From Crossaster papposus (lineage: Eukaryota > Echinodermata > Asteroidea > Velatida > Solasteridae), in NCBI GenBank assembly GCA_037893245.1, contig JBAIAA010000106.1, positions 1,612,001 through 1,676,000 of the forward strand: a stretch of 64,000 nucleotides of DNA, read 5' to 3'. The notes under the pieces were generated by a model. It worked only from the letters and a program-made list of their open reading frames with translations. It had not been told where the DNA came from and did not search any database. Positions 9,150 through 40,742 of the stretch are shown in pieces. Position numbers and translations under genes: made by a program. The stretch's first letter is position 1. Each line of letters opens with the position of its first letter.

Positions 9150-10985
9150 ATTAAAGATTGGTCCTACATATTGGTCCTACACGCGAATGGAGGCGACTAA
9201 GGAACAAGGTCGGACGCGCCATCAGTAATGCTAAAGCTAGTTACTACGCTGATCGAGTTCAACGGCTGAAGAGGACCAACCCACGTGACTGGTTTAAACA
9301 AGTTCGCGTCATGTCGGGGAAAGACAAATCCACAAATATAAATGTCCCTGGAATTGACTCCTCCGACCACGAGGGAATTGCTAACACTATTGGTGATTTT
9401 GCGTCCATCACTGCTGATATGGAACCACTTGATGTGTCTGCGTTACCAGCGTATCTCCCATCACATCCTATGAAACCTGTTCAGCCATGGGAGGTCTTCA
9501 ATGAGCTTAAGAAAGTTAAACCACGAAAGTCTAGTGGCCCGGACGGGATTTCACCACGGTTTGTTCGCATGTTTGCTTATGAATTGAGTGCCCCGCTCGC
9601 AGACATCATTAATAGCTCGTACAGTCAGTCATTTGTCCCACTGCGATGGAAACTCGCTGATATTGTACCGCTGCCGAAATCTTCCCCTCCGCAAAGATCG
9701 CTGAACACTTCATTGCAAAGGAACTTATGCGATCGTTGCAACCGAAAATAGACCCTGCACAGTTTGGAAACTTGAAGGGCGTGTCAACATCACATTGCCT
9801 CGTCGATGTTCTGCATACTCTCCACGTAAATGCAGACAAACGTGGTACCTCCTCGACGATCCTCTTTACTGACTTTTGTAAGGCATTCGATCGCGTGGAC
9901 CACACAGTCGCATTATCCAAGTTGGTTAAATTGGACGTAAACCCTTGTCTGGTGTCATGGATTGCTAACTTCTTGACAGATCGCAGACAAAGGGTGAGGT
10001 ACAAAGGTGTGAAGTCAGCGTGGCGTACTACAACAGCCGGTGTTCCCCAGGGAACAAAATTGGGCCCAATCATTTTCCTGTCGCTCATCAACGACGCTCT
10101 GCGAGGTGAAGACACCAACATCAATGGACTCAATGATAAAGTCACTGCTCTTCACGTCTTTAAATACGTGGATGACTTGACAGTGGTAGAAACTCGCCCT
10201 GCGTCAGCTCACTCAAGATTGCCTGATGTTCTTGAGTCACTCGCGGAATGGTCCACTAGAAACAAAATGCGTCTTAATTTCAAAAAGTGGACATTGGACA
10301 TTTCCTTTGTGAAAAATGTTATTGTTCCATGTGCTCTAGAATTAGACGATGTCATCATTCAACAATCCAATACTGTTAAGTTGCTTGGGATCTTCATACA
10401 AGCGGATTTAAAATGGAATACGCATATTTCGTCCATGATTAAACGAGCCAACAGCCGTCTGTTCGTCTTACGGTGTTTAAAACATTATAAACTTCCTACG
10501 AGTGACCTTGTCACTATCTACACGACGATTTGTCAGGCCGATCGTGGAGTATGCTGCCGCTGTCTGGTCCGGAGGTCTAACAAAGGAGCAGTGTAGGAGC
10601 CTAGAGCGTATACAGAAACGAGCGTGCAGAATTATACTTGGTGGCAACTATGGACACTACTCGCAGGTGCTCATAGACTGTCAGCTTAAGACTTTGGAGA
10701 GTAGGCGTCATCAATTGTGCTATTCATTTGCCAAATCTTTGCAAGATCCATCCTCCAAACTCCATTATTTGCTTCCTCCTGAGAGACCTAAGGTATATCA
10801 AACTCGAAGTTTAGCAAAACGAACTGAATTCCGTTGTAGGACTGATCGATTTAGAAATAGTCCTCTTCCCTATTTAGTGCGAATCCTTAATTCTGCCTAA
10901 TTGCATCGTCTGCCAGCAATTTACAAAATTAAGTCAGATTATTATTGTGTTGTATGCACATAAACATAATAATATAATAATTTAT
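9150..10985 (+). pseudogene. Dead LINE B, RT half only
   Basis: A 5'-truncated non-LTR retrotransposon with no endonuclease. The first frame (9158-9751) carries the pre-RT linker (WFKQVRVMSG) and RT entry motif (KSSGPDGISP). A deletion with frameshift near 9690 moves into 9727-10596, which has LFTDFCKAFDRVDH, TTAGVPQGTKLGP and the catalytic YVDD at 10165-10176. A second frameshift near 10540 leads to the thumb and C-terminus (VEYAAAVWSGG ... ILNSA) ending at 10900. The AT-rich 3' end has ATAATAATATAATAAT. Sequence and motifs differ from LINE A, so it is a different family. Inactive. Confidence 0.85.
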
Positions 10986-13319: not shown

Positions 13320-16300
13320 TATCACTGTTAGTTTCTTTAATGAAATTTAATGTATGAAAGATGCTGTGTTTTGAGTTTAACAAATTTTTAAGTGTCAATT
13401 GGTCAGAAGTAAATTTAAGTGATTTTTTAAGTATTTGTCTATTATGTTCAAATTGTTTACATGTCGTGAGAAAGTGTTCGACATTATCATAAGTATTGCA
13501 TGTTTCGCAAAGTCCATCAGGATGTTTACCTATTTTTTGTAAGAAACTGTTTTTTGGGCAATCTGGTCTACTTTTTCATTTCCATAAATACCGCAATGTC
13601 CTGGTATTCACTCAAAAGTGACTCTATTAGCTTGGTTTTTAATACTTATCAGGGTGTGTCTAATGTCACAAACAATTTTATTGCTGGGATTAGGGTGTGA
13701 GATGGCTTGAATTGCACTTAAACAGTCACTGAAGATGCAGGTGTGCATGGGCTGAACGTCTTCAATCTATTCTACAGCTAACAGAAGAGCAAAGAGTTCC
13801 GCTGTAAAAATGAAAGCCTCATTGTTTAGTTTAATACTCTTGGAGTAACTGAATTGAGGAATATAGATTCCACATCCAACTGTGTTGGTAGTAGGATTAA
13901 GTGATCCGTCAGTGTAGATGTGGAGTGAATTTCCCCACTGGGTATGTATTGTTTCTGCAGCAATGATGCCCTTTTCATTGATGTTCGATATGTGTTTAAT
14001 GCGGTTGAAGATTTCGGCTGAGATGTCTGGTTTTGTGTAATGCCAGTAAAGAAAAAGGTTATGTAATGGAAAAATGTTGGAGTAAGGTTGACTGGATCTA
14101 GCTTCAAAAGGTGTGTGATGCAGACTATTTTTCCATTTTTCAGCAAAATAATGTTTCTGCCAGCAATCTGTTTGGACATACTTGTTGGGGTGAGAATTGT
14201 GCATGTTGAGTTTAATATTGTAGAGATTGCAGAGAAAACTGCGACGAAAACATAATGGGGGTTCACCACACTCTACTTGTAGTTTCTGACACGAAGTTCC
14301 GTAGAGTGCTCCGGAGCATATTCTCAGAGCCTGATATTGTATGCTGTCTAATTTCTGTTTATGTTCCATGGCCGCTGAATTAAAGGCTTCACATGCATAG
14401 TCCAGAATTGGTTTAATAAGTGTTTTGTATAGTTGAAAGAGAATACAACAATCCGCTCCCCAGTCCTTTCCGCTAACACATCTCAAGATATTGAGTTTGG
14501 ATTTGCATCTGTTGACAATATAATTAATATGGTCTTTCCAGTTAAGTTTGTTGTCAAAAATAATACCCACAAATTTAATATCAGTATTATTCATCTGTAA
14601 TTTACAGGAAGCATTGCGTTTTTGTGTAAAAAGAGTCGCAAAGGTTTTAAGAATGGATATTTTAAAACCCCATCTATCACACCAGGCAGAGATATCGTTT
14701 AAATTTTGTTGGATTTGTATGTTGATAAAGTTAATGTTTCTATTAGACTTCCAAATTACTATATCATCGGCATATTGGGAGATGTTGATTCCGTTTATGA
14801 CTTCAGATAGACCGTTGATAGCTATGTTAAAAAGAATGGGGCTGATGGCACTTCCTTGGGGAATGCCAATATTGACATTGTGCGAGTCGGAGTAGGTACC
14901 ATTGATATTTACTTGAATTTTTCTATTGGTAAGGAATCATCAATCCATTTAGTAATACATCCATATATTCCAAGGGAGTGAAGTTTAATGATTATGCCTT
15001 TTGGCCATACCATGTCATATGCCTTTTCAAGGTTTAAAAATACAGCGAGGGTGCTTTCCTTGTTGGCAAAAGCTTTATTTATGTTAGACTCTAGGTTAAT
15101 GATGTGGTCTTTAGTACTCCTTCCTTTACGAAAACCACTCTAATGAGCACTAAGTAGATTATGTTTTTCCAGATACCAGATGAGTCTGTTATTAACCATA
15201 CGTTCCATGATCTTACAGAATGTGGAGGTGAGGGCTATAGGTCTATGACTTAGGATCGGAGGGACTTTTGCCAGGTTTTAAAATAGGGACGAGAATAGCT
15301 TCCTTCCATGTGCTTGGGCATTGAGAAGTTTTCCATATTATGGTAAAAATGATAAGGAGAAAGCCACGGGCTTTCAGAGGGATATGTTTAATGATATTAT
15401 TACATATAATTATTATCTTTACCAGGAGAGGTACACTTAGCTGAATTGATGGCTTCGTCAAGTTCTGATATGTTAAAAAGATCATTAATGATGTTATCAT
15501 TTTCCTCAGAGTGGGAAAAGTTATCTTCTGCATTTTGTTTTACTTCAAGGAAGGAATCACTGTAGTTATTGTCACTACTGATGGAGGAAAAACTACTAGC
15601 AAGCAAGTTAGCCTTTTCTTTATCTGTAATGAAATCTTGATTGTTGTCTGTTAAAGTGGAAATATTAGTCTTGGTATGGGTATTGTTAATACGATGAATT
15701 TTGTCCCAGATCTTTTTAGAGGGAGTTTGGTAGTTTAAAGTATTGCAGAAATTTGTCCAATCCTCTCTTTTAGCCAATTTTATTGTTTTACGAGCTATGG
15801 CACAAGTATATTTATAGTGAATAAGGTCTTGGGGATGACGGGTTTTTTAAAGAGTTTTAAGGGCTTCTTTACGGTTTTTAATAGCTCTTTTGCAATCATC
15901 GTTCCACCATGTGGTGGGCTTTCTTTTAAAAAATTTCGTAGTAGTGGTTCAGGGATGGAACAGTTAATAGCCTCAGTGAGTTGATTGATGTATATGTTAT
16001 ATGTCTCTTCAGCACTGCAACATGTGGTTATGTTGGGTTTAGTAATGAAACTATCACAGGCAGTTTGAAAAGTATCCCAGTTTGCTTTTATTATAGACCA
16101 GTGAGGGATATGTTTACGTGGCGTATGAAGACATTTTTTATTTGATTCAAAAATTATAGGATGATGATCGCTACCCCATGTGTCATCTAAAATTTTCCAA
16201 TTGTAATTAGCTGCTATGTCAGAAGTGGTAAGAGTAATATCAATGCAGGTGATGGTACCATTAGAGGTATTAATTCTTGTTCCGTCTCCATTATTTATGC

Positions 16301-17017: not shown

Positions 17018-18384
17018 CTATTTTCCTTTTTTTTTAGTTGTCTCCCAGATTTGAAGAGTTCCGATAAGCAATTCTATCAGGGTATTGTCATGTTGTAGGT
17101 AAGTTGAGGTTGGTTCAGTTTGGCAAGCAACTGGAACTTTATCAGTTTGGGTGGATGCATCTACCGATATTTTGTTAGCAGAGGACATGTTTTGTTTTCT
17201 TTGTACTGGTACATCATTTACAGCTTGAGGAGTTTGTGGGATTGTCCAATTTCTTCGTTCAGGCCAGATTTGAGTTTGTTTAGGTGTTATTGTAGGTGTA
17301 CATGTATCCCTAGGTTTTCCAGCGTGGACAGTAATATTTGTGCTTATGGATTTGGCAGCTTCAGCATAAGAAATGTTGTAAGTAACTCTTACTTCTTGTA
17401 TCTTCTTTTCATGCTTCATGGTGTTACATCCGCCGTAGGCGGAGGAGTGATTTCCACCACATCTGCTACATTTCACCTGGTATTTTTGATCACATTCTTC
17501 ATATAAGTATGGTTTCCACTGCATCTAACACATCTGGTATTGCTTCGACAATTTGTAGCTGTATGACCTAGTCGTTGGCAATTGAAACAGCGAATGACTG
17601 GTGGAATGTATTGTTTGATATCAAAGTGTTGATAGCCGAATTTGATGCTCTGGGGTAAGTGAGGTGTGTTAAATGTGAGGCAGACAGAAAGGCTTTTCCC
17701 TGTTTGACCATTTCTTCTGAATGTGAGTCTGCGGACTTCTATAACGCCAGCTTTTTTGCATTTTTTGATTATGTCTTGTTCTGTAAGTTCTAAAGGAACG
17801 CCAGATATAACTCCCTTACTTTGAATTTCTGATTTTGCATAGTCGGTGGTGACTGCCCATTTTCCAAGATTGGTGATTTTCCTCAATTTGTTGGCCTGTC
17901 CTGGGGTGTAGCATTTGACACTAATGCCACCTTGATTAGTTTTAGTCACATTTTGTATGATGTCACTTCCTATTGCATTTAGTGCCTTAGCAATTTTTAG
18001 CGGATTTATTTGGGCAAGTTTGACGTCTGGTGAGTTTATAATTACTATGGTGGGGTTTCCTTGGGTGGAGTATGTGTTTCTTCTTTTTTGTTGTCTGTAG
18101 GAGCTATTATCAGAGTCGCTGGAATTGTCGCTTTGACTTTGTGTTTTTCTTTTGTTTGTTGCTTTCACAGAGACTTGAGAATCATTTTCATCAGCATTCG
18201 CATCCTTGTCGTCTTCTTGAGCTTGGCTTATTAATTTATCTAAAGTTGACCGAGGTTGGTTGTATTGTTGCCTGTTCCTGTTTTGAGATAGTTGCTGTTG
18301 GGATAAAAGGTCCCATGACATGTCTTCCTCCGAGTCGTCGGCCATGTTGGTCCGACGACCGAAAGGTTGTACAAAAGTATGCAA
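17018..18384 (-). pseudogene. LINE C ORF1: Gag-like zinc-knuckle protein, one frameshift
   Basis: Starts MHTFVQPFGRR at 18384. It has a Ser/Asp-rich low-complexity N-terminus, an RRM-like/PRE_C2HC middle part, then zinc knuckles: CFNCQRLGHTATNC, CVRCSGNH.. and CSRCGGNHSSAYGGC. The frame shifts near 17490-17510, inside the second knuckle; after the shift ISYAEAAKS, typical of I/Jockey ORF1 proteins, is visible. Apart from this shift the ORF (~440 residues) is open. It would be the RNA-binding RNP protein of the LINE. Confidence 0.85.
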
Positions 18385-18998
18385 AGAAAATAGTGTGGTA
18401 TAGCCAAGAAAGCAAGCAGCAACAAAGGAAAAGCAAGCAGGTATAAAGTAAGAAGGCGAGCTAAATAAGGAAAATAAATCTCACCACTCGCAGTTAAAGG
18501 CCCAGTCACACCGGATCGTACGATTTCTGGATCGTGCGAGTTGGTGCGATTTGGCAGAGATACGACCAATCGCCAATGTTTGCGACGATCTCCATAGCGG
18601 TCGTATGCTGTGATTGCTCTTAATACTGGTGGTAGGTCATCGTACGATTGGTGGCACGCTTGGTCGTGCGATCACAAGCGATTGGAAAAGATTGATCGCA
18701 AAATCAGTCGTAGGTAATCGTGCGACTGGTCCCAGGTACCCACGATTGATCGTACGAGCAATCGTGTATACCTGCAACCACTCGCACGATCAGTCGTGTA
18801 TACCTACAACCAGTCGCACGACTGATCGCATGTAGACACAGCCAGTTGTGCGATCGGTCGCAGGTCATTCAATCAGATATAAAAGGCTCTCAATCGTTCA
18901 TCAGGATCAGTAGCTATCTCCAAGAGTTCCAAGGTCCGAAGGCGTGCACTTCAGGAGTGTAGTAGTAACCTTTAGTAATATATACGTCATCACTCGCT

Positions 18999-26689: not shown

Positions 26690-28285
26690 ACTGCTTCTAT
26701 TACCAAAATTAACAAATCAAATAAGTTAAGAGGGTTAATATTTCGATCTTAACAAGATCTTCTTCAGAGACTAAATGACTGTGTACAAGAAACAAACATA
26801 TATAGGGCAAAATACAGCATGATGCACATCATTGACGCTGAAAAAACACAAAAGAAAAAAGCACAGAGTTCAATGGAACAAACAACAAAAGGAGGATTAG
26901 GCTGAGGGATAAAAGGGTGAGGTAAGTGTGGGTAGGATCAAAGGCGGGGTAGGAACAAAAACAGAAGGGGTAAAGCCACAAGGAAAGGGGTCCAGGGTGG
27001 AGATCAAAGGGAAGAACTAACAAAGAAGTATGAATAGGAGTAACGAGGAGGTGGGGGTTGAGGAAAACCAGAGGAGTAAGAACAAACAAAAACAAAATTC
27101 TGGCAAGGAATGAATCTGAAACAGATGACAAATGGAAAAAAAAATTGAAGTTAATCATTTCCTAGTTGGATGTTAAGCCCATGTGGTTGAATAGTCCGAA
27201 GACGATTCATCCACACTTTCTCCCGGCTGAGGCGGACTGAGTCGTTCCGATGGCCAAGTGATTCTATGCCCTGAAGAATCATATCAGAAATGCAAGGGTT
27301 AGGCTGGTTAAAGTGATGTCCTACAGGGGTATCCAGTTTCTTGGTGTTGACAGTCGATCGATGACCGTAGAAACGCTTTTTTAGGGCATTTTTGGTCTCT
27401 CCGACATACTAAACTCCACAAAACCTGCAAGAGATGAGATATATGTTACCAATAATTCTATGAGTAGTACCAGAAGAGTGGCCAGAAAAGGAGTCAGACT
27501 ACTGAATGTGGATCTGGCAGACCACACATCTAGAACTGCACTTGAAAGTTCCGTGCTGGATGGGGGGAGATGCATCCAAGCTGGGAACTTTGGCTCGAAC
27601 AATGAGGTCTCGTAGATTTTGAGGGCGTCTATAGGCCAATACAGGGCTTTCGGGGATGGCACGGACAAGGCGATCTGAAGTGTGGAGAATGTGATGGCTG
27701 TCGTTAGTGATTTTGCGAAGGGAAGGGAGACTGGGGTGAAAGGTAGTCACCAGGGGGATCATGGGTTTGGCATTAGCCTGGGAGGCCTTTACCTTTAGAG
27801 CCAAATTTCTAGGTACGGCTTTGGCTCTGGCAATGGCACGTTGAACTTGGCGGGAACTGTGACCCCTGGCAACCAAGTTGTTCTTCAGTATCTGTGAATG
27901 GCGGGAGAAATCATAGTCGTTAGAACAAATCCTTTTGAGTCTGAGGGCCTGACTAAATGCTATACCAGTCTTGCAATGCCTAGGGTGACAGCTGGAGGAG
28001 TGGAGATACTGGTGTGTGTCTGTGGGTTTAGAATACAGATCAGTGGTTATTAAGTTGTCCTCCTTGCGGATGGTGACATCCAGGAAGTGGGCCTGATGAT
28101 GTGAGTACTCTGATGTGAACTTGATGGTCCTGTGGAAGGAATTCATGTGATTAGTGAAAGTCAGCAGACTGTCTCCACCAGATCCAGGGACGGCACGGTG
28201 CTAAGGCAAGCATGCGTTCCTCGAGGTCACCCAAAAAGAGGCATGCAAAGGAGGATGCCATACGAGTACCCATTGCAGTACCATG
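26690..28285 (-). pseudogene. Penelope-like element, 3' part (RT end plus GIY-YIG)
   Basis: Reading leftward from 28285: GTAMGTRMASSFACLFLGDLEERM (PLE RT), then a deletion that has removed the catalytic IDD block, then FHRTIKFTSEYS, HFLDVTI, the TD(L)YSKPTDTHQYL block and C-terminal RT sequence to 27499. After an in-frame TAG comes a GIY-YIG endonuclease: NIYLISCRFCG, another TAG at ~27406, YVGETKNALKKRFYGHRS, ending MNRLRTIQPHGLN. Non-coding 3' sequence runs to about 26690. The RT upstream part continues at 37157 after the Gypsy insertion. Inactive. Confidence 0.9.
26741..26767 (-). ncRNA. Possible hammerhead-ribozyme core remnant
   Basis: On the - strand CTGAAGA (fits CUGANGA) is followed by a 6-bp stem, GATCTT and AAGATC with loop GTT, and then GAAA. 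This is the order of a hammerhead catalytic core. PLEs are known to carry hammerhead motifs in their terminal regions. Stems I and III and the cleavage site could not be built convincingly, so it may be a degenerate copy or chance. Confidence 0.35.
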
Positions 28286-29324
28286 TGTGAGGAGGCGTTC
28301 TTAGCTGTTATTGTTCAATTGTTATAAGTTGTTTTGTCTCTCTCCGCTGAACGGTGGCGCCCTTTATTTTAACATAATGTTCATGTAAAAGTTCGATGAC
28401 CCAAGGCTCCTTACTGCCTGCACAATCTTTCACAGGTGAGAACGTCAATTTTTGACTGATTATTTGAACCTAGATTTTGGAGATTACACATTAATGATAC
28501 TTGTCCATTATTATTTCCAGTTTATCCGCTTGGGTCAATAGCTCATGCCTATTGTACTTTTTATGTAAAACGTGGTACCAAAAAGTGTTATTTTGGAGTT
28601 TGGAAACTTGTGTCGAAGTGTCAAAAGTTTAGCGGTGACAGTTGCCGTGCGTTGCGTTTCTGCCAGAGCACAATATACATGTACGTGCTGTACGTGGTGA
28701 TTTGTGGAGGCAGTTGGCTTGTTGTGCGCGCGTGGAATAATAATTTAATTACAATGTATACATTGCTGGTTGTGGTGGGTTGCATGGATGTCGCTATGGT
28801 GCGCTGGACTTTGGGGGAATGGGCGTGTATTTTCTGTGTATGTGAATGAGTGCAGCTGGGCCCAGCGATGTGTGTTTGTGTCCCATACCCCTCCTGCCTA
28901 GCGTTTCTGTGGCATCTTTGCGACCTACATAATCTGGTATATTTAATTATTGAGAAATTGATGATGACATTTGTTGAAAGGAATGTTTATTGGAAAAAGG
29001 AGACAAATTAAGGTACAACAAGTTGGATACAGTAATACTATAGTCACTCTTAATTTTATTAATGTGCATTTTAAGTAATTATACAGTCACTTTTAGTTTG
29101 TTGATATTCTTTCAAATGTCAGTCATATTTGTTCATGTATTACAATTTGTCTAATTAATTATCTTGTCTTACTGCCTGCACAATCTTTCACAGTTTGTGC
29201 AGGTATCCCCCAGACGGCGACAATAAACCCGGCCCTGGCTGGAGAGAGACCCCAGAAAGAACCTGTGCTTTGTCCCCTCTTTCACCGGGAGTAACCGCGG
29301 CCCCGGATCTAGCCTCCCCTTACA
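28286..29324 (+). repeat. 5' LTR
   Basis: Begins TGTGAGGAGGCGTTC and ends CCTCCCCTTACA. It contains AATAAA at 29222-29227 and two copies of a 25-bp segment (28411-28435 and 29169-29193, core CTGCCTGCACAATCTTTCAC). The first copy runs into CACAG|GTGAGA, a good splice donor. A 79-codon open frame at 28610-28849 is not credible as a gene. Confidence 0.97.
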
Positions 29325-29326
29325 AC

Positions 29327-29344
29327 TGGCGTAGTCGGCAGGAT
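29327..29344 (+). promoter_or_regulatory. Primer binding site (tRNA-Ser)
   Basis: TGGCGTAGTCGGCAGGAT begins two bases after the LTR. It is the complement of CCA plus the acceptor and T-stem 3' side of animal tRNA-Ser (CCTGCCGACTACG-CCA, recalled from known tRNA-Ser genes), with 18 matching positions. It primes minus-strand cDNA synthesis. Confidence 0.85.
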
Positions 29345-30261
29345 GGGATTTTGAAGCTTCTCCAGACAGGTTGCAGGGCATACTCCGTCAGTCTGTGGAT
29401 TTGGTTACCGGTACCAGAGTCAAGTTTACTGTGGACTTCACGTCGTCACTTGTCCTCGTGTTGAAGAGTGCTCTTCGGACAATGTATATTAGGCTTGTCG
29501 ACAACAACTGAAGATAAAACTATTGTGGACTTAGTTTTTTCGAGCAGGACTTGCCAGTTTACATCAGCTTTGGAGATTTGATAATTGCAAAACAAGAACA
29601 GATTATTACGATTGAAATTTCTGGACTTAGCATTTTTATTCTGTCAAGCAAGAGTGACCAGTTTACATCGGCTTTGGAGGACCGCTAATTGCAAGGCAAG
29701 AACTAATAATTTTAATCGGACTTGTCGTTGTTGTTGGGGATCTACTGCATTACAGTTCTCAAGAACAGTGTTGGAAATCCTACAGTCAGAAACTGATAGG
29801 TGCAGCTGAGAGACCTGTTGTTTGGAAATATTTGCTTTGTGTTTTTAGTGTAATTCACACTCTTTTACATAATTCTTTTAATTGAGATTGAGGTTGTACT
29901 TTACACCGATCATTTGTTTTATATCTGGTGTTTATAGAAATTTGTGTATTGACATACTATGTGTTCCGAAGTATTGTCGTGTCAATAGACTGGTGTATTG
30001 TTGTATTGGATGTTCCTAAATATTGTCATATCAATAGGCTTGTGCCCGGTACAGTGAAAGGTTTTGATATGGTGTATAGTGTATAACACTCCATCAAATT
30101 GGTTGGTGGTTACTGTGTAATTGGCTGAGGCTGTCAGTCAGAGTGTTATACTGTACTATGTAACGTTTTACCGTAGTGTGAGGACACCACTTACATTGTG
30201 TATTTTGATAGACTTGAGTACCTTGTATTAATATTTTGGAAACAGGCATATCGATAGCACT
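29345..30261 (+). other. Gypsy leader with paired imperfect repeats
   Basis: ~0.9 kb of untranslated leader. Two ~55-bp imperfect direct repeats lie at ~29547-29605 and ~29653-29708 (shared CCAGTTTACATC, GCTTTGGAG, CTAATTGCAA/ATAATTGCAA). A second adjacent pair of ~50 bp lies at ~29944-30044 (TGTATTG...GTTCC...TATTGTC...TCAATAG). Such paired elements could form RNA structures for packaging or translation control. That role is inference. Confidence 0.6.
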
Positions 30262-31620
30262 ATGGCGGCATACATTAAGATCCAAGGGGACGGCCCCACT
30301 GTCCACCAATTCCCCCTGGACGAAGATGATGGCACCCTTAGTTTGGCTGTACTCCAGTCCCAATATCCCTCAGCTACGGGACTGTTATACCCAGACGGCG
30401 ACAGCAAAGTAGTGGTCCCAGCCCAGGAGGAAATTATAAAGCCGCCCAAAGAAGGATGGGGAGAACACACCTACTCTGTTCTTCTTCCAGAACAGGCTAG
30501 TTCTCAGAAAGAGGATTCTACTATTCTCGACATTCAGTCACAATTGATGAAGCTGCTTCTGAAACCTCAGTCTCAACTCGTCATGACCCCCGAGAGGAAA
30601 ATCTCCACATTTGAAGGGAAGGTTGGAGAGGTCCGCGAGTTCATCACTAGTATGGAGAATGCCTTTAAATGCTACTCCATTCCCGAGGATCAGAGAGGTG
30701 CCTTTCTTCTTGATTATCTACGCGGCGGTCCGAAAGCTGAAGTTAAGGCCCTCCTGGTGGAGAAGAAGACTGTCGACGAGATAATGGCGTTCCTACGCGA
30801 GTCGTACAGTGACAAGTTAGCTGTTGGTGAACTGCAGCGGATGTTTCTTGAGCGGAGACAGAAGAGTGGAGAAGCGATCCGAGACTATGCGGTCGATATC
30901 GAGAAGCGCTTCTTGAGACTGACACGCCGGGACCCAAAGCTCTACTCAACTCCAGACTCGACGCTTGCAGAACAGTTTATAGAGGGCATCGAAGATCTCT
31001 ACCTTCGCAACTCGTGCCGTGATCAATATGAACAAGGCACTATGGAGACGTTCAGAGAGCTACGGGAGTATGCAATCAAGCGCCAGGGACGAGAGGAAGC
31101 CCGGAACAATGCCAGCAGTGCATTCAACGCCGCAATGCAACTCCCTGGAGGCCCTCGCCCATCTACATCACCTGACCAAAGGGCATGTGACGAGATGATG
31201 TCGGCATTCAGAGAGATGGCCAACCAGGTAGTCGCGACAGTCCGGCAGATTGCCCAACCCACATCAAGCCGTGCTCATGGGCCACCAGTAAGCCAGACTT
31301 CATATGGAAGGGATAGACCCCGTGGTTGCTTCCGTTGTGGTGAATTCGGACACATCGCTCGCCACTGCAGACAAAGTTCCGCCCCTCAGTGGCCAAGGCG
31401 TGACCAGAAGTACTATCAGAGCCAGAGTTCAAACATATATCGACCACAGCAGGCCCAGTTTGCCACTCCCCCAGGTGTGGATATATCCTTGGGCTCTAGT
31501 ACCCATCAGAGCGGTCCCCAGGACACACTTCCCTTCGGTACGACACGAGGATCACGCGAGCAGAGACAGGCAAACCAGACAACCACTTCGAGCCAGGGAA
31601 ACTTCCCCCCTCTTCTGTAG
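30262..31620 (+). CDS. gag: Gag with TDP-43-like N-terminal domain
   Basis: 452 residues. ATG has A at -3 and G at +4. Residues ~1-82 resemble the N-terminal domain of TDP-43: MxxYIKI start, an acidic EDDGTLSLA segment, QYPSATGLLY, and EGWGEHTYSVLLP in the same order and spacing as EDDGT, QFPGACGLRY and GWG..VYVV of TDP-43. That domain has a ubiquitin/DIX-like fold and makes head-to-tail polymers. Residues ~110-280 look like a retrotransposon capsid (FITSMENAF, FLLDYLRGGPKAE, RYAV-like RDYAVDIEKRF). A CCHC knuckle CFRCGEFGHIARHC is at 356-369. The protein ends at TAG 31618-31620, just after two slippery heptamers. It should form the virus-like particle; the added domain may help assembly (inference). 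Confidence 0.93.
   Translation: MAAYIKIQGDGPTVHQFPLDEDDGTLSLAVLQSQYPSATGLLYPDGDSKVVVPAQEEIIKPPKEGWGEHTYSVLLPEQASSQKEDSTILDIQSQLMKLLLKPQSQLVMTPERKISTFEGKVGEVREFITSMENAFKCYSIPEDQRGAFLLDYLRGGPKAEVKALLVEKKTVDEIMAFLRESYSDKLAVGELQRMFLERRQKSGEAIRDYAVDIEKRFLRLTRRDPKLYSTPDSTLAEQFIEGIEDLYLRNSCRDQYEQGTMETFRELREYAIKRQGREEARNNASSAFNAAMQLPGGPRPSTSPDQRACDEMMSAFREMANQVVATVRQIAQPTSSRAHGPPVSQTSYGRDRPRGCFRCGEFGHIARHCRQSSAPQWPRRDQKYYQSQSSNIYRPQQAQFATPPGVDISLGSSTHQSGPQDTLPFGTTRGSREQRQANQTTTSSQGNFPPLL
31596..31620 (+). promoter_or_regulatory. -1 frameshift site, gag to pol
   Basis: GGGAAAC (31596-31602) and CCCCCCT (31605-31611) both fit X XXY YYZ in the gag frame, 16 and 7 bases before the gag TAG. Pol lies in the -1 frame and is open through this region, upstream of its first GTG at 31620. 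No pol ATG is well placed, so frameshift expression is favoured. The downstream stimulatory structure was not determined. Confidence 0.7.
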
Positions 31621-34600
31621 TGAGCCATACGGCAGAGGTTGGAGTAGATGGCTCAACAGGAGTGCTAGGATCCAACTTCCTTTCAAAGACTGTGGGTGAA
31701 TGTTATTCTGTTCGAGTTAAATTTGGAGGAGTACCAGTTAACTGTTTGCTTGATCCAGGATCACAAGTTACTACTGTCGGTGAGCATTTTTTCCACCAGT
31801 GTTTGGAGCCCCAGGGGTTTAAGCTACAGGGTATTCCAACAACATTTTCCCTGGTATCTGCCAGTGGTGCCCCCATCCCCTACGTCGGCTGTTTTGAGAC
31901 AGATGTATCTGCGCTGGGGCACAATGTCAAATCAAGGGTAGTTTTGGTGATCAAGGAGCAGTGGTCGGCATTAAAGAACTGGGAGGAGGCGAATGTCAGA
32001 GGTATCCTTGGTATGAATGTGCTCCGTGAGTGTTGGGAGGCACTCATTGATGTCAGAGGAGCAAATCACATCTGTAAGATAGACTGGCCCACACCGGAAA
32101 CGGCTTGGCAAACTGCGCTCCATATTGTTGGTGAAAAACTGTCCTTTGGTGGGAACACTGGCGAAGTAGGAAAGGCACGACTGGTAGAGGAGCAACGCAT
32201 TGTCGTCTCGGCCCGCCAGGCAGTCATACTGGAAGGAAGGGGACAGCGTGGTCCAGTTGGAGGCTCCTATGATGCAGTTCTTGAACCGGTTAGGGACAGT
32301 GGTATTCCGTCGGGTGTCGTTCCACCGTGTATGGTTAGAGTGGAAAATGGACGGTTCTCTATTGCACTCTTTAATGACACAGACATAGACCTGGTAATCC
32401 CGACTTCTGCTGAACTTGGTACGCTGTACCTGGGTATGGCCAATAGTCCAAAGGAAATGGAGCCCTGTGATCCACAAAGTTGTCCATTACCAGACAACCC
32501 CACTGATGCGACTGACCTCTCGGCAAGGGTTGCTTCAGTTGGAGTTGATGAGGAGCTTTATCCTATCCCTATCCCTGTCGATATTGACCCAACTCTGCTA
32601 AATGCTGAACGACATAACAAGCTTTGTGCACTACTGAAGAAGCACCAGACTGCTTTCTCATCAGACAATCAGGATTTTGGTTTTACAAGCACTATAACCC
32701 ATAGCATCGATACAGGCTCTTCACACCCAGTCCGACAACGTCATAGGTCTCTTCCACCGTCCCAGTACCAGGCTGTACGTGACCACATAAATGGTCTACT
32801 TGAGAAAGGAGTTGTTCGGGAAAGTAGCAGTCCATGGGCCTCTCCGGTTGTGGTTGTACAGAAAAAGGACTCGTCGATCCGCTTGTGTGTAGATTATCGC
32901 CTTCTCAACCGACTCACCCACCGGGACTCCTTTCCACTTCCACGCATCGAAGAGTCCCTCCAAGCCCTCGGCGGAGCCAAGTATTTTAGTGTTCTAGACC
33001 TAACCAGTGGCTACTATCAGGTTGCTGTTGATGCCGATGACATCGAGAAAACGGCCTTTGTCGTCCCTTTTGGACTATACGAATACACCCGCCTTCCATT
33101 TGGGCTGTCAAATGCCCCTGCTACCTTTCAACGGTTGATGCAGCGCTGCCTGGGAGATAAGTGTTTCGAGAGTGTACTCATCTACCTCGACGACATTATC
33201 GTTTACTCTGCCGATTTTGACACACACATGTCACACCTCGATGCAGTTTTTGCCAGACTTCGAGGTCATGGCCTGAAGCTAAAGCCCGCTAAGTGCCACC
33301 TACTTCAAAAAGAGGTTTGCTATTTGGGGCACCGGGTTTCTAGTGAAGGAGTAGCAGTCGATCCAGAAAAGATCAGAGTTGTAGAGAGCTGGCCAGCGCC
33401 GACGACTGTTCGTGAGATGAGAGCATTTCTGGGATTCACTGGATTTTTCCGGCGGTTCGTTCGGGGGTACGCAAACGTTGCCTCGCCTCTATTTAGGCAT
33501 CTGCAATGTAAACCTGGCACAAAACGAAAGGGGAGTAGGCCACCTGGAACGAAGATTACGCTAGACGCCGAGGACCAGGCTGCATTCGGGGCCCTAATTG
33601 ATTGCCTGACAAAGGCTCCAGTGTTGTCCTATGCTGACTTTTCCAAACCCTTCCGGGTGGAGACTGATGCAAGCAGTACAGGTCTTGGTGCAGTTTTGTT
33701 TCAAACGGATGACGAGGGCAATCACCATGCCATTGCATATGCTTCCCGCACACTGAGAGTAGCTGAGAAGTCTGGGCGTTACAGCGCATTTAAACTGGAG
33801 CTGTTAGCAATTAAGTGGGCAGTGACGGAAGTTTTCAAGGATTATCTCTTGGGCAATAAGTGTCTCGTCGTTACAGATCACCATCCCCTGAAGTACCTTG
33901 ATACAGCCAACTTGGGCTGCACAGAGATGAAGTGGGTTCAGCAATTGAGTTCATTCGAGTATGAGCTCGTTTATAGGCCAGGTAGATGCAATCAAGCCGC
34001 AGATGTTCTTTCCAGTAAAGGCCAAGGGGAAGATGCTGGTGAAGTTGTCCAAGTTGAACACCCAACGAGCCCTGTTGTAACTTCGAGTTCCATTGAAGCC
34101 TGTGTCCGGAGCTACTCGCCGGGCACACAACTACCCCCTGTCGTCTGTCACCACATTGAAGCTTGCCGTACAGGAGGGTCTAGCCGCCTGCCTGGATACT
34201 CACTTCGGCAAGTGACAGATAAACAGCAAGCAGATCCCACCTTGGGAAAGGTCATTGAGTTTGTAGAGAGGAAGCAACAACCGTCTCGCCGAGAGCGGGC
34301 CGGCTGCCCACATGATGTTCTGCGGCTCCTTCGGGATTGGGAGAGACTCTCTCTTCAGGATGGATGTCTATACCGTAGAGTCACATCGCCATCTGACCAG
34401 CAAACACATTATCAGCTGCTACTTCCATCACTCCTTCGTGATGAAGTCTTGACCAGATTCCATGATGAGGTTGGACACTTTGGTCCAAAGCGCACTTTCA
34501 AGTTCATCTGGCCAAGATTCTACTGGCACGGCATGCAAGATTTTGTCAAACAGTGGTGTACCAAATGCAAGAGATGTGGCGTCAGTAAACCGCCTATAAG

Positions 34601-35777
34601 ACGGACCAAACCCCCCTTTGGCACAATATCTGCAACAGCTCCTATGGAAGTGCTCGCTATGGACTTTACCCTCCTCGAGGCATCAGGCGATGGGTATGAA
34701 AATGTTCTCGTTGTCACGGACGTATTTACGAAGTATGCATGGGCCATCCCTACCAAGGACCAAAAAGCATCGACGGTCGCCAAAGCTCTTGTCAAGCATG
34801 TGTTTATCCCCTACGGCTGCCCACTGCGACTACACTCCGACAATGGCCGCAATTTTGAGTCCCATATTGTCGCAGAGTTGTGTGAATTATATGGAGTTAA
34901 ACGAAGCCACACCACACCGTATCACCCAGCAGGAAATGGGCAGTGCGAGCGGTTCAACCGCACCCTCCACAACATGCTCGCGTCACTACCTCCCAAGAAA
35001 AAGGCTAGGTGGACAGAATACATACAGGCACTTGTCTTCGCTTACAACAGCTCAGAACACTCAACTACTGGGGTTGACCCCTTCTTCCTAATGTTTGGGA
35101 GGAATGCTCGGTTTCCTCATAGTCTAGACTTAGGCGGGGAAGCCACCCATTCCAAGGCCAAGGATGTCGACTTGTATGTCCTGCAACACCAGGCAAGGTT
35201 GCAAGCTGCCCGTAAAGTGGCAATACAACACACAGATAGAGCGGTGGCGGCTCGAAAGGCTGCAAGAGCTGGAAAGGTGTTTGAGAAACCTCTTGGCGTT
35301 GGGCAATATGTCCTCATTCGTTGCCGATCTCATAAAGGCCGTTCAAAGATCCAAGACTACTGGGAGGAAGAGCCATTCATGATAGTTAAACAGCCATTTG
35401 AGGGACAACCGGTATATGTGGTTCGCAACCGTCAGAATCAGGAAAAGGTTCTCCATCGCAGCGAACTGAAACTCTGCCCATGGCCACCAAACAATGCCCT
35501 ATCTCCTTCAAGTGTGAGCGATACAGCACTTTCTTCATCCGACGAAGATTCCTCTCCATCCGCTACAGGATATGTTCTCCGTCCTGTTCGCGTTCCTAGT
35601 TCAACCGCAGGCTCGGTACCGGAGATCAATCCTGCACCTAGCCCAGATGACCGCAGCTCACACACTATTGATGTCAAGCCAGAAGTCTACGCTGGTGCAG
35701 CGGAAGAGGCTGCCCCATCACACCGCTACCCTCTGCGGTCCACTCGTGGCAAGCCACCAGACAGGCTGACCGTATAA
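31620..35777 (+). CDS. pol: Pol: protease-RT-RNase H-integrase
   Basis: 1,385 residues counted from GTG 31620, probably made as Gag-Pol. The protease has LLDPGSQVTTV (D45), with P where DTG/DSG is usual. RT: FSVLDLTSGYY (D460) and YLDD (522-525). RNase H: ETDASSTGLGAVLF (D683) and FKLELLAIKWAV. Integrase: zinc motif H948, H953, C980, C983; catalytic D1015, D1074, E1110 (DD35E); then a GPY/F-like module (VGQYVLIRC...HRSELKLCP) and a Ser/Pro-rich tail ending YPLRSTRGKPP. No chromodomain or envelope seen. Order PR-RT-RH-IN is Ty3/Gypsy. No stop or frameshift in the frame. It copies and integrates the element. Confidence 0.97.
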   Translation: MSHTAEVGVDGSTGVLGSNFLSKTVGECYSVRVKFGGVPVNCLLDPGSQVTTVGEHFFHQCLEPQGFKLQGIPTTFSLVSASGAPIPYVGCFETDVSALGHNVKSRVVLVIKEQWSALKNWEEANVRGILGMNVLRECWEALIDVRGANHICKIDWPTPETAWQTALHIVGEKLSFGGNTGEVGKARLVEEQRIVVSARQAVILEGRGQRGPVGGSYDAVLEPVRDSGIPSGVVPPCMVRVENGRFSIALFNDTDIDLVIPTSAELGTLYLGMANSPKEMEPCDPQSCPLPDNPTDATDLSARVASVGVDEELYPIPIPVDIDPTLLNAERHNKLCALLKKHQTAFSSDNQDFGFTSTITHSIDTGSSHPVRQRHRSLPPSQYQAVRDHINGLLEKGVVRESSSPWASPVVVVQKKDSSIRLCVDYRLLNRLTHRDSFPLPRIEESLQALGGAKYFSVLDLTSGYYQVAVDADDIEKTAFVVPFGLYEYTRLPFGLSNAPATFQRLMQRCLGDKCFESVLIYLDDIIVYSADFDTHMSHLDAVFARLRGHGLKLKPAKCHLLQKEVCYLGHRVSSEGVAVDPEKIRVVESWPAPTTVREMRAFLGFTGFFRRFVRGYANVASPLFRHLQCKPGTKRKGSRPPGTKITLDAEDQAAFGALIDCLTKAPVLSYADFSKPFRVETDASSTGLGAVLFQTDDEGNHHAIAYASRTLRVAEKSGRYSAFKLELLAIKWAVTEVFKDYLLGNKCLVVTDHHPLKYLDTANLGCTEMKWVQQLSSFEYELVYRPGRCNQAADVLSSKGQGEDAGEVVQVEHPTSPVVTSSSIEACVRSYSPGTQLPPVVCHHIEACRTGGSSRLPGYSLRQVTDKQQADPTLGKVIEFVERKQQPSRRERAGCPHDVLRLLRDWERLSLQDGCLYRRVTSPSDQQTHYQLLLPSLLRDEVLTRFHDEVGHFGPKRTFKFIWPRFYWHGMQDFVKQWCTKCKRCGVSKPPIRRTKPPFGTISATAPMEVLAMDFTLLEASGDGYENVLVVTDVFTKYAWAIPTKDQKASTVAKALVKHVFIPYGCPLRLHSDNGRNFESHIVAELCELYGVKRSHTTPYHPAGNGQCERFNRTLHNMLASLPPKKKARWTEYIQALVFAYNSSEHSTTGVDPFFLMFGRNARFPHSLDLGGEATHSKAKDVDLYVLQHQARLQAARKVAIQHTDRAVAARKAARAGKVFEKPLGVGQYVLIRCRSHKGRSKIQDYWEEEPFMIVKQPFEGQPVYVVRNRQNQEKVLHRSELKLCPWPPNNALSPSSVSDTALSSSDEDSSPSATGYVLRPVRVPSSTAGSVPEINPAPSPDDRSSHTIDVKPEVYAGAAEEAAPSHRYPLRSTRGKPPDRLTV

Positions 35778-36114
35778 GTCAAGTGTGATATTAACTCTGG
35801 CCGGTTGCCCTGTTAACCAATTTTGAGAGTTGCTTCTCTCTTGTTTTGCATTGTGTATTTTTACCGTTTGTTACTCCTCGTGTTTTGTGAGTCATGAATT
35901 TTCTGAATTTGCGAGATATTTTGGACTGAATCAAAATGGATTCCTCTGGCGACCGGCTGCACTTAATATTGCACCCTTGTTCTCACTTAGTGTGATTTAG
36001 CACTTAATTCTAAGAGTGACATCTTGCCTAGACTTGGAGCTTAGTTTAACCGATTGTTTAATTCATGTATATCCCCGAGTCATCAAGGGACGATGACTCC
36101 AAGGCGGGGAAGGT
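35778..36114 (+). other. Gypsy 3' untranslated region and polypurine tract
   Basis: ~340 bp between the pol stop and the 3' LTR. The purine-rich AAGGCGGGGAAGG just before 36115 is the likely plus-strand primer. No open frame for an envelope. Confidence 0.8.
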
Positions 36115-37153
36115 TGTGAGGAGGCGTTCTTAGCTGTTATTGTTCAATTGTTATAAGTTGTTTTGTCTCTCTCCGCTGAACGGTGGCGCCCTTTATTTTA
36201 ACATAATGTTCATGTAAAAGTTCGATGACCCAAGGCTCCTTACTGCCTGCACAATCTTTCACAGGTGAGAACGTCAATTTTTGACTGATTATTTGAACCT
36301 AGATTTTGGAGATTACACATTAATGATACTTGTCCATTATTATTTCCAGTTTATCCGCTTGGGTCAATAGCTCATGCCTATTGTACTTTTTATGTAAAAC
36401 GTGGTACCAAAAAGTGTTATTTTGGAGTTTGGAAACTTGTGTCGAAGTGTCAAAAGTTTAGCGGTGACAGTTGCCGTGCGTTGCGTTTCTGCCAGAGCAC
36501 AATATACATGTACGTGCTGTACGTGGTGATTTGTGGAGGCAGTTGGCTTGTTGTGCGCGCGTGGAATAATAATTTAATTACAATGTATACATTGCTGGTT
36601 GTGGTGGGTTGCATGGATGTCGCTATGGTGCGCTGGACTTTGGGGGAATGGGCGTGTATTTTCTGTGTATGTGAATGAGTGCAGCTGGGCCCAGCGATGT
36701 GTGTTTGTGTCCCATACCCCTCCTGCCTAGCGTTTCTGTGGCATCTTTGCGACCTACATAATCTGGTATATTTAATTATTGAGAAATTGATGATGACATT
36801 TGTTGAAAGGAATGTTTATTGGAAAAAGGAGACAAATTAAGGTACAACAAGTTGGATACAGTAATACTATAGTCACTCTTAATTTTATTAATGTGCATTT
36901 TAAGTAATTATACAGTCACTTTTAGTTTGTTGATATTCTTTCAAATGTCAGTCATATTTGTTCATGTATTACAATTTGTCTAATTAATTATCTTGTCTTA
37001 CTGCCTGCACAATCTTTCACAGTTTGTGCAGGTATCCCCCAGACGGCGACAATAAACCCGGCCCTGGCTGGAGAGAGACCCCAGAAAGAACCTGTGCTTT
37101 GTCCCCTCTTTCACCGGGATTAACCGCGGCCCCGGATCTAGCCTCCCCTTACA
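36115..37153 (+). repeat. 3' LTR
   Basis: Same length (1,039 bp) as the 5' LTR. The only difference noticed is G versus T near the 3' end (GGGAGTAACC versus GGGATTAACC). AATAAA at 37051-37056. Followed by the CATG target duplicate. Confidence 0.97.
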
Positions 37154-37157
37154 CATG

Positions 37158-37770
37158 TACCTGTAGATAGTGCTTATCTAGGAAGGAAAAATTATTCTTC
37201 GTTAGTACAAGTTTAATGAGGGCGCGAATGTCACTTATGGGAGGGGTCGTGTGTCCTGCCCTAGCTAGGGTTATGGAACAAGCACGAATACCTTCTTCGT
37301 GTGGTATGTTAGTGTACAAGGATGAGACGTCAAAAGTCCCAATCAATGATGGCCGTTCTGGGAATCTGGTCCTTGATTCCTTTGAGCTTGCGCAGGAAAT
37401 CTGGGGTGTCATGGATGTATGATGGAATCCTATTGACAAGGGGTTTAAGAAAACTGTCAATAAACAGGGAGATGTGATCAGTGGGTGAGCCATTACCCGA
37501 GACGATAGGCCTACCAGGGTTACCAGTCTTGTGAATCTTAGGGAGAAAATAAAACCTGGCAGTTCTACAGTCGGTGGGTGAAAGAAATTTGTGAGCTTTC
37601 TTTGACAGTTGGTCACGTGATCGCATGTCATCAAGCAACTGCTGTATCTCTCGAGAGAATGTACCTGTGGGATCAGAGTCAAGGCAGATATAGTTAGTAC
37701 GGTTGTCCAACTGACGGTGGGCCTCGTCGATGTACACTTTTGTTATGAGGCCTTTTGTTATGAGTAAATG
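37158..37770 (-). pseudogene. Penelope-like element, RT N-terminal part
   Basis: Reads leftward from ~37765: ITKVYIDEAHRQL, FYFLPKIHKTGNPGRPIVSGNGSPTDHIS (PLE RT fingers), a frameshift near 37345, then the motif A block TFDVSSLYTNIPHEEGI and NFSFLDKHYLQVH at the Gypsy junction. It continues into 28285 downward once the Gypsy is removed. The 5' end is truncated about 10 bp from the NLR stop codon, in the same orientation as the NLR gene. Confidence 0.9.
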
Positions 37771-37776
37771 TGAACC

Positions 37777-40526
37777 CTAAGCTATATGAACCCTAAGCGA
37801 CGGGAAGCGGGACTGCAAATCTAATCCAACTAATGGCCCGTTGAAACTTAAATCCAAGGCAGTCAGTTTGGGCATGTCGCGTGCAACCGAGGCAATGTGT
37901 TCAATGTCTGTCGGTGTCAAATCGCACCAGATCAGTTCCAGCCTACTTAAGTGCATCATTTTTGGCATTTCCTTGGCCCACAACTCAGCTGATCCGCCCA
38001 ATCTCAGGTTGCCACAAAGGACCAAGTCAGTCAGTCTAGGCATGTCACGTGCAGCCAAGGCAATGTGTTCAATGTCTGTCGGTGTAAAATCGCACCAGCG
38101 CATGTCCAGCCTACTTAAGTGCATCATTTTTGGCAATTCCTTGGCCCACAACTCGGCTGATCCGCCTAATCTCTGGTTGGCATACAGGACCATTAAGTCA
38201 GTCAGTCTGGGCATGTCATGTGCAGCAGAAGCAATGTGTTCCATGTCTGTCGGTGTCAAATCGCACCAGCCAAGGTCCAGTCTATTTAAGTGCATCATTT
38301 TCGACAATTCCTTGGCCCACAACTTGGCCGATCCTCCCAATCTCAAGTTGCGATTAAGGACCAAGTCAGTCAATCTGGGCATTGCACTTGCAGCTGAGGT
38401 AATGTGCTTAATGTCTTTCGGTGTCAAATTGCACACGCTCAGGTCCAGACTATTTAATTTTAAGTGCTTCATTTTCGGCAATTCCTTGGCCCATAGCTTA
38501 GCCGATCCGCCCAATTTTTCGTTGCCATCAAGGACCAAGTTAGACAGTATGGGCATTTCACGTGCAGCCGAGACAATGTGTTCAATGTCTGACCCCACTA
38601 GTCCACAACCACGTATGTAAAGTGTTCTCAGACTTGTCAAGTGTCGGATATGAGGGGCCCATTCTTTAGCTCTACCTCCCAATGTATGGCAACCTGTTAA
38701 GTCAAGACTGGTCAGGTCTTGGTTGCATTTTAGTGACGACAGAATTTTCCCAAGACCACCATCTACTAGATGACATTGGTCAAGTCTCAGTGTATTGAGG
38801 TTTTCCATGTAACCCAGAGCGGTAACTACATCGCTGACCGAAGACACCAAAGAAACCCAACAAGTTTTAACGCGTGCCAGCTGCGCCGTGCGGTTGTCGG
38901 ACCCACAGATGATTTTCAGAAGGTGTATGAGACTGCGCATATCATTATTGTTACGCACATCGATATATGAGGGGAAATTTGAGTCGCCGGTGAGACACTG
39001 TGGGACTATGCTTGACTGGCTTTCTGAAAAGCAGTTGCGACTAATCGCCTGTATAACATCTGACTGGTACTGTGGCTTATCATCATCCTTATTGAACTTA
39101 CGATCAAGGAAATTTACAATGTCAGTCATGCACTTCTCGTTGTCACCACAACAAAAACGCAACAGGAAATCGTTTGAAACCACGCCCTCTATTGTCTGAC
39201 AAAGTTGTCTTAAACTATTTTTAAATTCTCCGAATAAAAAAACTTTGTACACCGTACGCTTTGCAAATCCCCGGTTCGACATATGCACACTCTGCAAGTA
39301 TTTCGCTGCACAGTATTCCTGTATTGTCTTATGCATGAATTGTATGTTGTTGTCGTATTTGTGGTTTTTGATAGCTCTCTGCTTGGTTAGGATGCCTGCT
39401 TTTAGTGCCATGTTCAGTGCCTTCGGTTCAAACTCATCTTCTTGAAATGAAAATTTTTGGTTGGCACTCACAAGTCCACACAGCGCAGTTTTCCCTATGG
39501 TAATCACTGTTTTTGAAGCATCTTCGTCGCAGATATCTGCTTTTCTTGTGAACATGTAATCAACTGCCTCAGTGAAGAGGCGTGAAGTTGTTTCTGGTAG
39601 TTGGTTATTCTTTCTCCACAACAAATTCATAAGCAACAGTAACATTGGGTTCTTAGCAAAATCACGCAGCGTGTTGGAAGTTCCAATGGTTTGGATTAGG
39701 GCATTGCCACTATCAGGATCATTGTCATGGAATTTATGAGCGTATTCACTTACATCCTCGTCGGTAAACCCCAGAACCTCTACGTGTGTGCAAGGATTTT
39801 GGACAAGTTTTGATGTCAGTGTCCCAAGATGAGAGGGGCGGGTTGAGACACAGATGAAACATTCCCTGTATACTGTTCTTTTGAGTGCTTTGAGGACAGA
39901 ACCGAATAAGGCTGCATCAAGTGTTTCGGTCTTCATTTCGTCAAAACCATCCAAAAGAATCAAGACCTCATTTGAGTTGGCCACAATGAATTTATCAAGT
40001 TCATCTTTGTCTACTCCTGACTTTTCGCCCACAAGTTGATCAAAAAAGGAATCAACGAGATCCGATTCCTGTGACAGGGCATACATCTTTAAAAGAAAGA
40101 CGAGCTTGAATCTGTTTAAAATTTCGCTTACCCCATCGGCCCAATCGTATACAATCTTGTCAAAAATGGTTGACTTACCAACCCCTCCCATGCCGAAGAC
40201 AATTAGGCGTTTCATGAGTTCCCCAGTTCCTGTCCTTAATCTGAATATTTTGTCATACTCTGTTGAGTTTACAGTTTCTCCTTTCTGATGGTCAGTGACA
40301 ACTGCTACCCCTTCCCGTGTTTCTAACTGAACTTTAGTGTATATGCCAGCTATGTGCTTCTGGTCATTATCAACGCCAGGCAACAACTGCACGTAACTGC
40401 CTGTTGTTTTATAAACTGTCTTTAAAATAGCACTGGTCTTGTTACCGACATCTTGGTCGCTAGGAGACCCCAACCTTGGTTCTTGATCTGCACTCTGACT
40501 AAGCCGAGGTATCGGTGCAGGAATAC
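37777..40526 (-). CDS. NLR copy A, main exon: NACHT-LRR
   Basis: Final exon of an intracellular NOD-like receptor. Its acceptor is TTAAAAAAG|GTATTCC at 40526 and it stays open to the TAG at 37777. In the open frame starting at 40545, Walker A is GMGGVGKST (~118-126) and Walker B is VLILLDGFDEM (~194-204). NACHT helices and a winged-helix-like region (FMHKTIQEYCAAKYLQ) follow, then LRRs from about residue 590 to the end. The LRR part has five tandem ~57-residue units with LGGSAKLWAKELPKMMHL and LTPTDIEHIASAARDMPRLTDL. Phase 1 matches exon 2. No effector domain (Death, CARD, Pyrin) is seen. The intact frame suggests function in ligand sensing and oligomeric signalling, which is family knowledge. 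Confidence 0.92.
37860..38640 (-). repeat. ~171-bp tandem repeats encoding LRR units
   Basis: Four to five highly similar in-frame units spaced 168-174 bp. Each encodes a pair of leucine-rich repeats of the long RI-like type. Unit similarity is much higher than between ordinary LRRs, pointing to recent duplication or gene conversion inside the exon. Confidence 0.85.
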
Positions 40527-40742
40527 CTTTTTTAAGCCAAAACAAGAAAGAAGTTTTACTTCAATAATACATTGTTTCTGAAATGTATTGTGTCTAGTCT
40601 AGAAGAAAATTGTATGTAAAAGAAATGACTTTAAGATTTCTGGTGCTATTGTAAGGTACTGCACAAATAAGTTTGGTAAATAATATCTATACATGTGTTG
40701 GCAACTATAGCGCTGTTAGATGCAAACTTGTCAAGTGTTTTC

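Follow-up and report, generated by a model that had tools for sequence, protein, structure and literature searches.

A TDP-43-type N-terminal domain in the Gag proteins of a Gypsy-type retrotransposon clade in the Crossaster papposus genome

TDP-43 (TARDBP) is a host protein linked to ALS, and carries two RRMs after its N-terminal domain (NTD). Contacts between successive NTDs have been placed at tail residues E14, E17, E21 and Q34 and head residues N45, S48, R52, R55 and N76, with either E17A/E21A or R52A/R55A abolishing TDP-43 oligomerisation (PMC5491494). Assembly of the human protein is also disrupted by S48E, E17R or Y4R, according to a second study (PMC5830921). The closest described mobile elements are the Ty3/Gypsy retrotransposons (Metaviridae), which share with the element reported here the order protease-RT-RNase H-integrase, the nearest RT, a Ty3/Arc/PNMA-like capsid, TG..CA LTRs and a 4-bp target site duplication; the latter differs from them by an extra host-type domain at the N-terminus of its Gag. 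PNMA, Arc and MOAP1 are domesticated Gags that are host genes, whereas this Gag belongs to a young element. Among papers judged by title or abstract start, we found none describing a TDP-43-type domain in a Gag, and the protein database already labels such Gags with PF18694 (precomputed).

The element and its surroundings

The window, a 64,000-nucleotide stretch of the C. papposus genome, contains a Gypsy-type LTR retrotransposon (Table 1) whose LTRs end in TG..CA and differ at 1 of 1039 positions, as expected from the earlier note's claim of a young element; the gag frame, also claimed to be intact, is indeed open throughout. The presence of LTRs, a target site duplication and pol identifies the locus as an element and rules out a host gene. 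Membership of the Troyka lineage, which has CG..CG ends and 3-bp duplications (PMC12440569), was rejected because the window element has TG..CA ends and a 4-bp duplication instead.

The pol frame overlaps gag and is shifted -1 relative to it. Pfam recognises RT, RNase H and integrase domains, with RT before integrase, and gives a weak protease match. The top PDB matches of the RT are 4ol8 (1.4e-60), which we take to be Ty3 RT, and 7q5b, Ty3-G Gag-Pol (1.1e-59), so that the nearest solved structures are those of Ty3. The protease motif at 31752-31760 reads D-P-G in the window copy; the usual motif of retropepsins is D-S/T-G. In Gag, the N-terminal domain precedes a capsid-like fold and a CCHC knuckle that falls just below its Pfam cut-off, in line with the order initially proposed. 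The capsid model resembles PNMA2, MOAP1, dArc and Ty3, with rmsd values of ~6 A or more for two-lobe matches, and the capsid sequence matches the Pfam PNMA family at 17.4 bits, below the cut-off of 25.

Table 1. Features of the element; positions are those of the window
Feature	Position	Strand	Basis
Target site duplication CATG, left copy	28282..28285	.	sequence
5' LTR, 1039 bp, TG...CA, 1 mismatch vs 3' LTR	28286..29324	+	
Primer-binding-site-like stretch TGGCGTAGTCGGCAGGAT, 2 bases past LTR	29327..29344	+	sequence
Leader between LTR and gag, 937 bases, six ATGs	29325-30261		
gag, open, 452 codons and stop	30262..31620	+	ATG at 30262
TDP-43-type N-terminal domain of Gag, residues 1-77	30262..30492	+	profile and structure matches
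Predicted helix between domain and capsid, residues 88-99	30523..30558	+	model, pLDDT ~40-50
Capsid region, residues 105-293, predicted PNMA/Arc/Ty3-like fold	30574..31140	+	
CCHC zinc knuckle, residues 354-371	31321..31374	+	Pfam 20.4 bits, cut-off 20.8
pol frame, stop to stop: protease-like, RT, RNase H, integrase	31500..35777	+	
GGGAAAC, candidate -1 frameshift heptamer, phase G GGA AAC, inside gag/pol overlap	31596..31602	+	
Polypurine-tract-like stretch preceding 3' LTR	36101..36113	+	sequence
3' LTR	36115..37153	+	
Target site duplication CATG, right copy	37154..37157	.	

The Gypsy element has inserted into a reverse transcriptase frame of the opposite strand, of which pieces lie on the minus strand at 27499-28200 and 37149-37742; once the flanks are joined, this frame runs uninterrupted through the insertion site. 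From its motifs we presume the interrupted frame to be Penelope-like, and its pieces matched no Pfam family. Beside the element lies a minus-strand frame with NACHT and leucine-rich repeats (37777-40560) and direct repeats spaced at 168-171 bp. Elsewhere in the window, two other RVT_1 reverse transcriptases and a CCHC protein (9661-10596, 13767-14936 and 17473-18480) probably belong to other retroelements.

Identity and distribution of the Gag N-terminal domain

The resemblance of the first ~80 Gag residues to the TDP-43 NTD, first noticed by eye, extends over residues 1-77 and proved significant in a profile search: the Pfam family TDP-43_N (PF18694) matches residues 1-85 at E 1.7e-13 (50.7 bits) and the whole Gag at E 3.6e-12 (46.5 bits), against a curated cut-off of 27.1 bits. 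Human TDP-43 was also the top PDB match both of the window Gag by phmmer (1.7e-6) and of a profile of eight Gags (3.7e-8). An AlphaFold2 model of residues 1-85, made with nine sequences (mean pLDDT 81, pTM 0.61), has the order b1-b2-a1-b3-b4-b5 of a ubiquitin/DIX-like fold, and all nine of its Foldseek matches at E <= 0.001 are TDP-43 NTDs; DIX, PB1 and ubiquitin share the same broad fold but rank lower. A viral structure library gave no match at E 0.001. The domain is 37% identical (30/81) to the host's own TDP-43 exon, and between the window Gag and its database relative P0006 identity is 36/76 in the domain, 5/20 in the linker and 113/189 in the capsid. By sequence and predicted fold, then, the Gag N-terminal domain is a homologue of the TDP-43 NTD, with which it also shares its N-terminal place before RNA-binding parts. 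No RRM is found among the Pfam matches of the window Gag, which has the capsid-like region and CCHC knuckle where TDP-43 has its RRMs.

The C. papposus genome (1.02 Gb) holds 86 TDP-43_N matches, all above the cut-off, and 14 control genomes hold none. Two are distinct TDP-43-like N-terminal exons (L001 and L002; G000 C261 and C410; E ~2e-25). For L001, an exon ~9.5 kb further on matches TDP-43 RRM1 (8e-13), confirming a TDP-43 gene; for L002, the last 3 kb of the 10 kb read contain frames in which nothing was recognised, and this exon may represent a paralogue or another haplotype. The remaining 84 lie outside these exons. In 80 of them a related capsid follows on the same strand, no more than 1.6 kb downstream; the other four are frames 115-117 residues long. 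Of the 84, 53 belong to stop-to-stop frames that span at least 390 residues and have a Met close to their start, and these fall into 12 families at 85% identity. Seven loci have a close capsid and no TDP-43_N match. Three form a family (L087-L089) with a strongly diverged domain below the Pfam cut-off (L087 16.9 and L088 17.5 bits), L091 retains the second half only, and the frames of L090, L092 and L093 begin past the domain and belong to the same families as domain-bearing copies. An eighth such locus, L105, is a fragment. A clade capsid match at G000 C596:897461-898006 lies in an open frame of 1735 residues, perhaps a fusion of gag and pol.

Gags with the same start, which the earlier note proposed to seek in other genomes, are present in the protein database. 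Residues 1-90 alone yielded 57 candidates and none at E 0.001, so relatives were sought with the whole Gag; one of these searches scored only the 7993 candidates sharing most words. Ten relatives were found, eight of them with the domain and seven over the cut-off; the only named domain-bearing protein is LOC119732212 of the sea star Patiria miniata, and P0007, as annotated, starts without the domain. No relative was found in viral contigs searched with the domain, the Gag profile and an RT piece, or in prokaryote genomes searched with the Gag profile.

Origin and maintenance of the domain

Among the matches listed from a capsid search of the genome (150 of 688 candidates scored), domain-bearing Gags of at least 42% identity and fragments are followed by families at ~27-32%. 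These include 12 loci (L094-L104 and L106) whose capsids are ~30% identical to that of the window Gag. The PNMA capsid model matched all eight members tested (seven families), over its cut-off in six, but TDP-43_N matched none of them. Seven of the 12 loci, all from this one genome, served as outgroup rows; in these a Met occurs only ~30 to 60 residues ahead of the capsid, and with so short a preceding segment the domain looks to have been added ahead of the capsid. The domain-bearing side comprised 19 rows, namely 14 families of the C. papposus genome and five database proteins, with P0005 and P0007-P0010 left out of the trees owing to a late start, fragmentation or absence of the domain.

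In the capsid tree a single branch separates the 19 domain-bearing rows from the seven without (100/100). Within the former, group I is weakly supported (80/48), and family H falls on different sides in the capsid and domain trees. In the unrooted domain tree three TDP-43 rows group apart from the Gags (99/99), joining the tree between its two main Gag groups with moderate support (86/80), an attachment expected from a single capture at the base of the clade. Residues R52-G53 (human numbering) are missing from 19/19 Gag rows and present in 3/3 TDP-43 rows, and a loss common to all Gags fits one origin. Taken together, the two trees and the shared loss make a single origin of the Gag domain likely. 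Since the related Gags without the domain lie outside the domain-bearing clade, the simplest interpretation is that the element gained it, and since the only other holders found in the genome are the two TDP-43-like exons, transfer probably ran from host to element. The earlier note had offered either capture from the host or a shared origin; homology stands and gain by the element is the likely course, as judged against an outgroup from one genome. Dating the capture by tree was rejected, since the three TDP-43 rows cannot place the Gag branch among animal TDP-43s; these trees give neither donor nor time.

Selection was assessed from variation within families, because no between-family pair had a capsid dS under 2. 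The count covers 11 families with two or more copies (52 of 53 loci, L023 being a single copy) and omits 31 of the 84 Gag loci, which have frames of <390 residues or no Met. Counting each variable codon once, against a neutral expectation that ignores transition bias, we find 26 synonymous and 23 non-synonymous in the domain (ratio 0.29, p 2e-5), 47 and 48 in the capsid (0.31) and 69 and 159 in other parts of Gag (0.70); an earlier pairwise count had given 0.39 for both domain and capsid. The contrast between the domain and the rest of Gag was rejected, being due for the most part to copies of odd length, some of which have a shifted tail: dropping the eight such copies gives 0.28 for the domain, 0.33 for the capsid and 0.31 for other Gag, and the domain is therefore not singled out. 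These counts show selection to retain the domain, similar in strength to that on the capsid and the remainder of Gag, which agrees with the initial view that the fusion is probably used.

Interface residues and possible function

The sites required for TDP-43 self-assembly have fared differently. Both host exons keep E14, E17, E21, Q34, N45, R52, G53 and R55, and carry T at position 48 and V at position 76. In contrast to TDP-43, R52, G53, R55, N45 and E17 are each kept in 0/19 Gag rows. Position 17 is occupied by R (8 rows), Q (4), K (2), L (2), C (2) or N (1), and is thus never acidic; the register of strand 2 is alignment-dependent, and this position is non-acidic in a second alignment too. 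At position 21 six rows have E, one has D and eight have a gap, while Q34 is kept in 8/19 and Y4 in 12/19. The window Gag itself retains only E21 and Q34 of E14, E17, E21, Q34, N45, R52 and R55. The expected conservation of the interface residues is accordingly not borne out, and the view that the domain brings TDP-43's own head-to-tail polymerisation into Gag is not supported in that form, E17, E21, R52 and R55 being needed for that polymerisation. The head region of TDP-43 has a net charge of +3 or +4, against -1 to -5 in all 19 Gags; for the tail region the values are -7 or -8 (TDP-43) and -5 to +3 (Gags). Among the two regions taken as controls, the b4-b5 loop is nearly unchanged (-2 or -3 vs a Gag mean of -2.0), but strand 1 is shifted (-1 or 0 vs a Gag mean of +1.58). 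As read from the alignment, the salt bridges of TDP-43 are lost in the Gags and the head and tail charges are shifted in opposite directions, a pattern that could reflect a rewired interface, but also a lost one.

On balance we favour an explanation in which a TDP-43-type domain was captured once, by an ancestor of the Gag clade and from host TDP-43, and now probably serves Gag self-association via a rewired interface. The ancestor of the whole clade would have gained the domain from the host gene, ahead of the capsid and RNA-binding knuckle, paralleling the position of the TDP-43 NTD ahead of RNA-binding domains. There it may add a weak, reversible Gag-Gag contact that would raise the local concentration of Gag on RNA ahead of closure of the capsid lattice, and an acidic head with a less acidic tail might allow this contact without co-polymerisation with host TDP-43. 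Such a contact through the domain is probable, although no Gag row retains the TDP-43 interface unaltered; given that the linking residues of TDP-43 are lost in every version compared, the capsid proteins probably stick together differently. A more specific form, which we regard as possible but doubtful, is that the clade captured the polymerisation domain and rewired its charges into an orthogonal head-to-tail Gag code on RNA that excludes host TDP-43. On this reading the strand that is acidic in TDP-43 would be neutral or basic in Gag and the face that is basic in TDP-43 acidic in Gag, but by sequence the Gag tail face is near neutral and falls short of a full sign reversal.

The domain might instead have retained its ubiquitin-like fold as a docking surface for another partner, or for nucleic acid, without self-association. 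Retention of the core with loss of the polymer interface is what such a role would leave, but we know of no partner, and we consider it unlikely. The title of one cited paper attributes single-stranded DNA binding to the TDP-43 domain, but an acidic head face in 19/19 Gags is unfavourable to nucleic-acid binding there. Host mimicry, in which the Gag domain would bind to or cap host TDP-43 and so blunt its action on retrotransposon RNA or ride into its granules, we hold to be quite improbable. The homology to the host exon, the partial retention of Y4 and Q34 and the title of a mouse study, according to which TDP-43 safeguards embryos from L1 retrotransposition (PMC9683724), speak for it; against it, both faces are altered, with the head residues R52, G53 and R55 absent throughout and tail position 17 never acidic. 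Nor is the leader clearly enriched in UG-rich TDP-43 sites, a candidate signal that was rejected: TGTGT/GTGTG occurs 6 times vs 3.6 expected, and 94 of 500 shuffles reach as many. That TDP-43 took its NTD from a Gag is very hard to credit: in plants, relatives of TDP-43 are reported to carry an RRM in the place of the animal NTD (PMC9676014), so that the animal lineage may have gained it, and TDP-43 lies between two Gag groups in the unrooted domain tree, but that moderately supported attachment is also predicted by capture in a Gag ancestor, related Gags lack the domain, and the two-residue loss common to all 19 Gags is absent from TDP-43.

With 84 of 86 genome matches outside TDP-43-like exons, a TDP-43_N label need not mean TDP-43. 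The Gag domain amounts to a natural experiment on the self-assembly domain of TDP-43, another branch of the fold having been retained by selection within a capsid protein without the interface residues that TDP-43 needs, and lets one ask which contacts assembly requires. It further suggests that self-assembly modules of the host can be taken up by retrotransposons for use in Gag.
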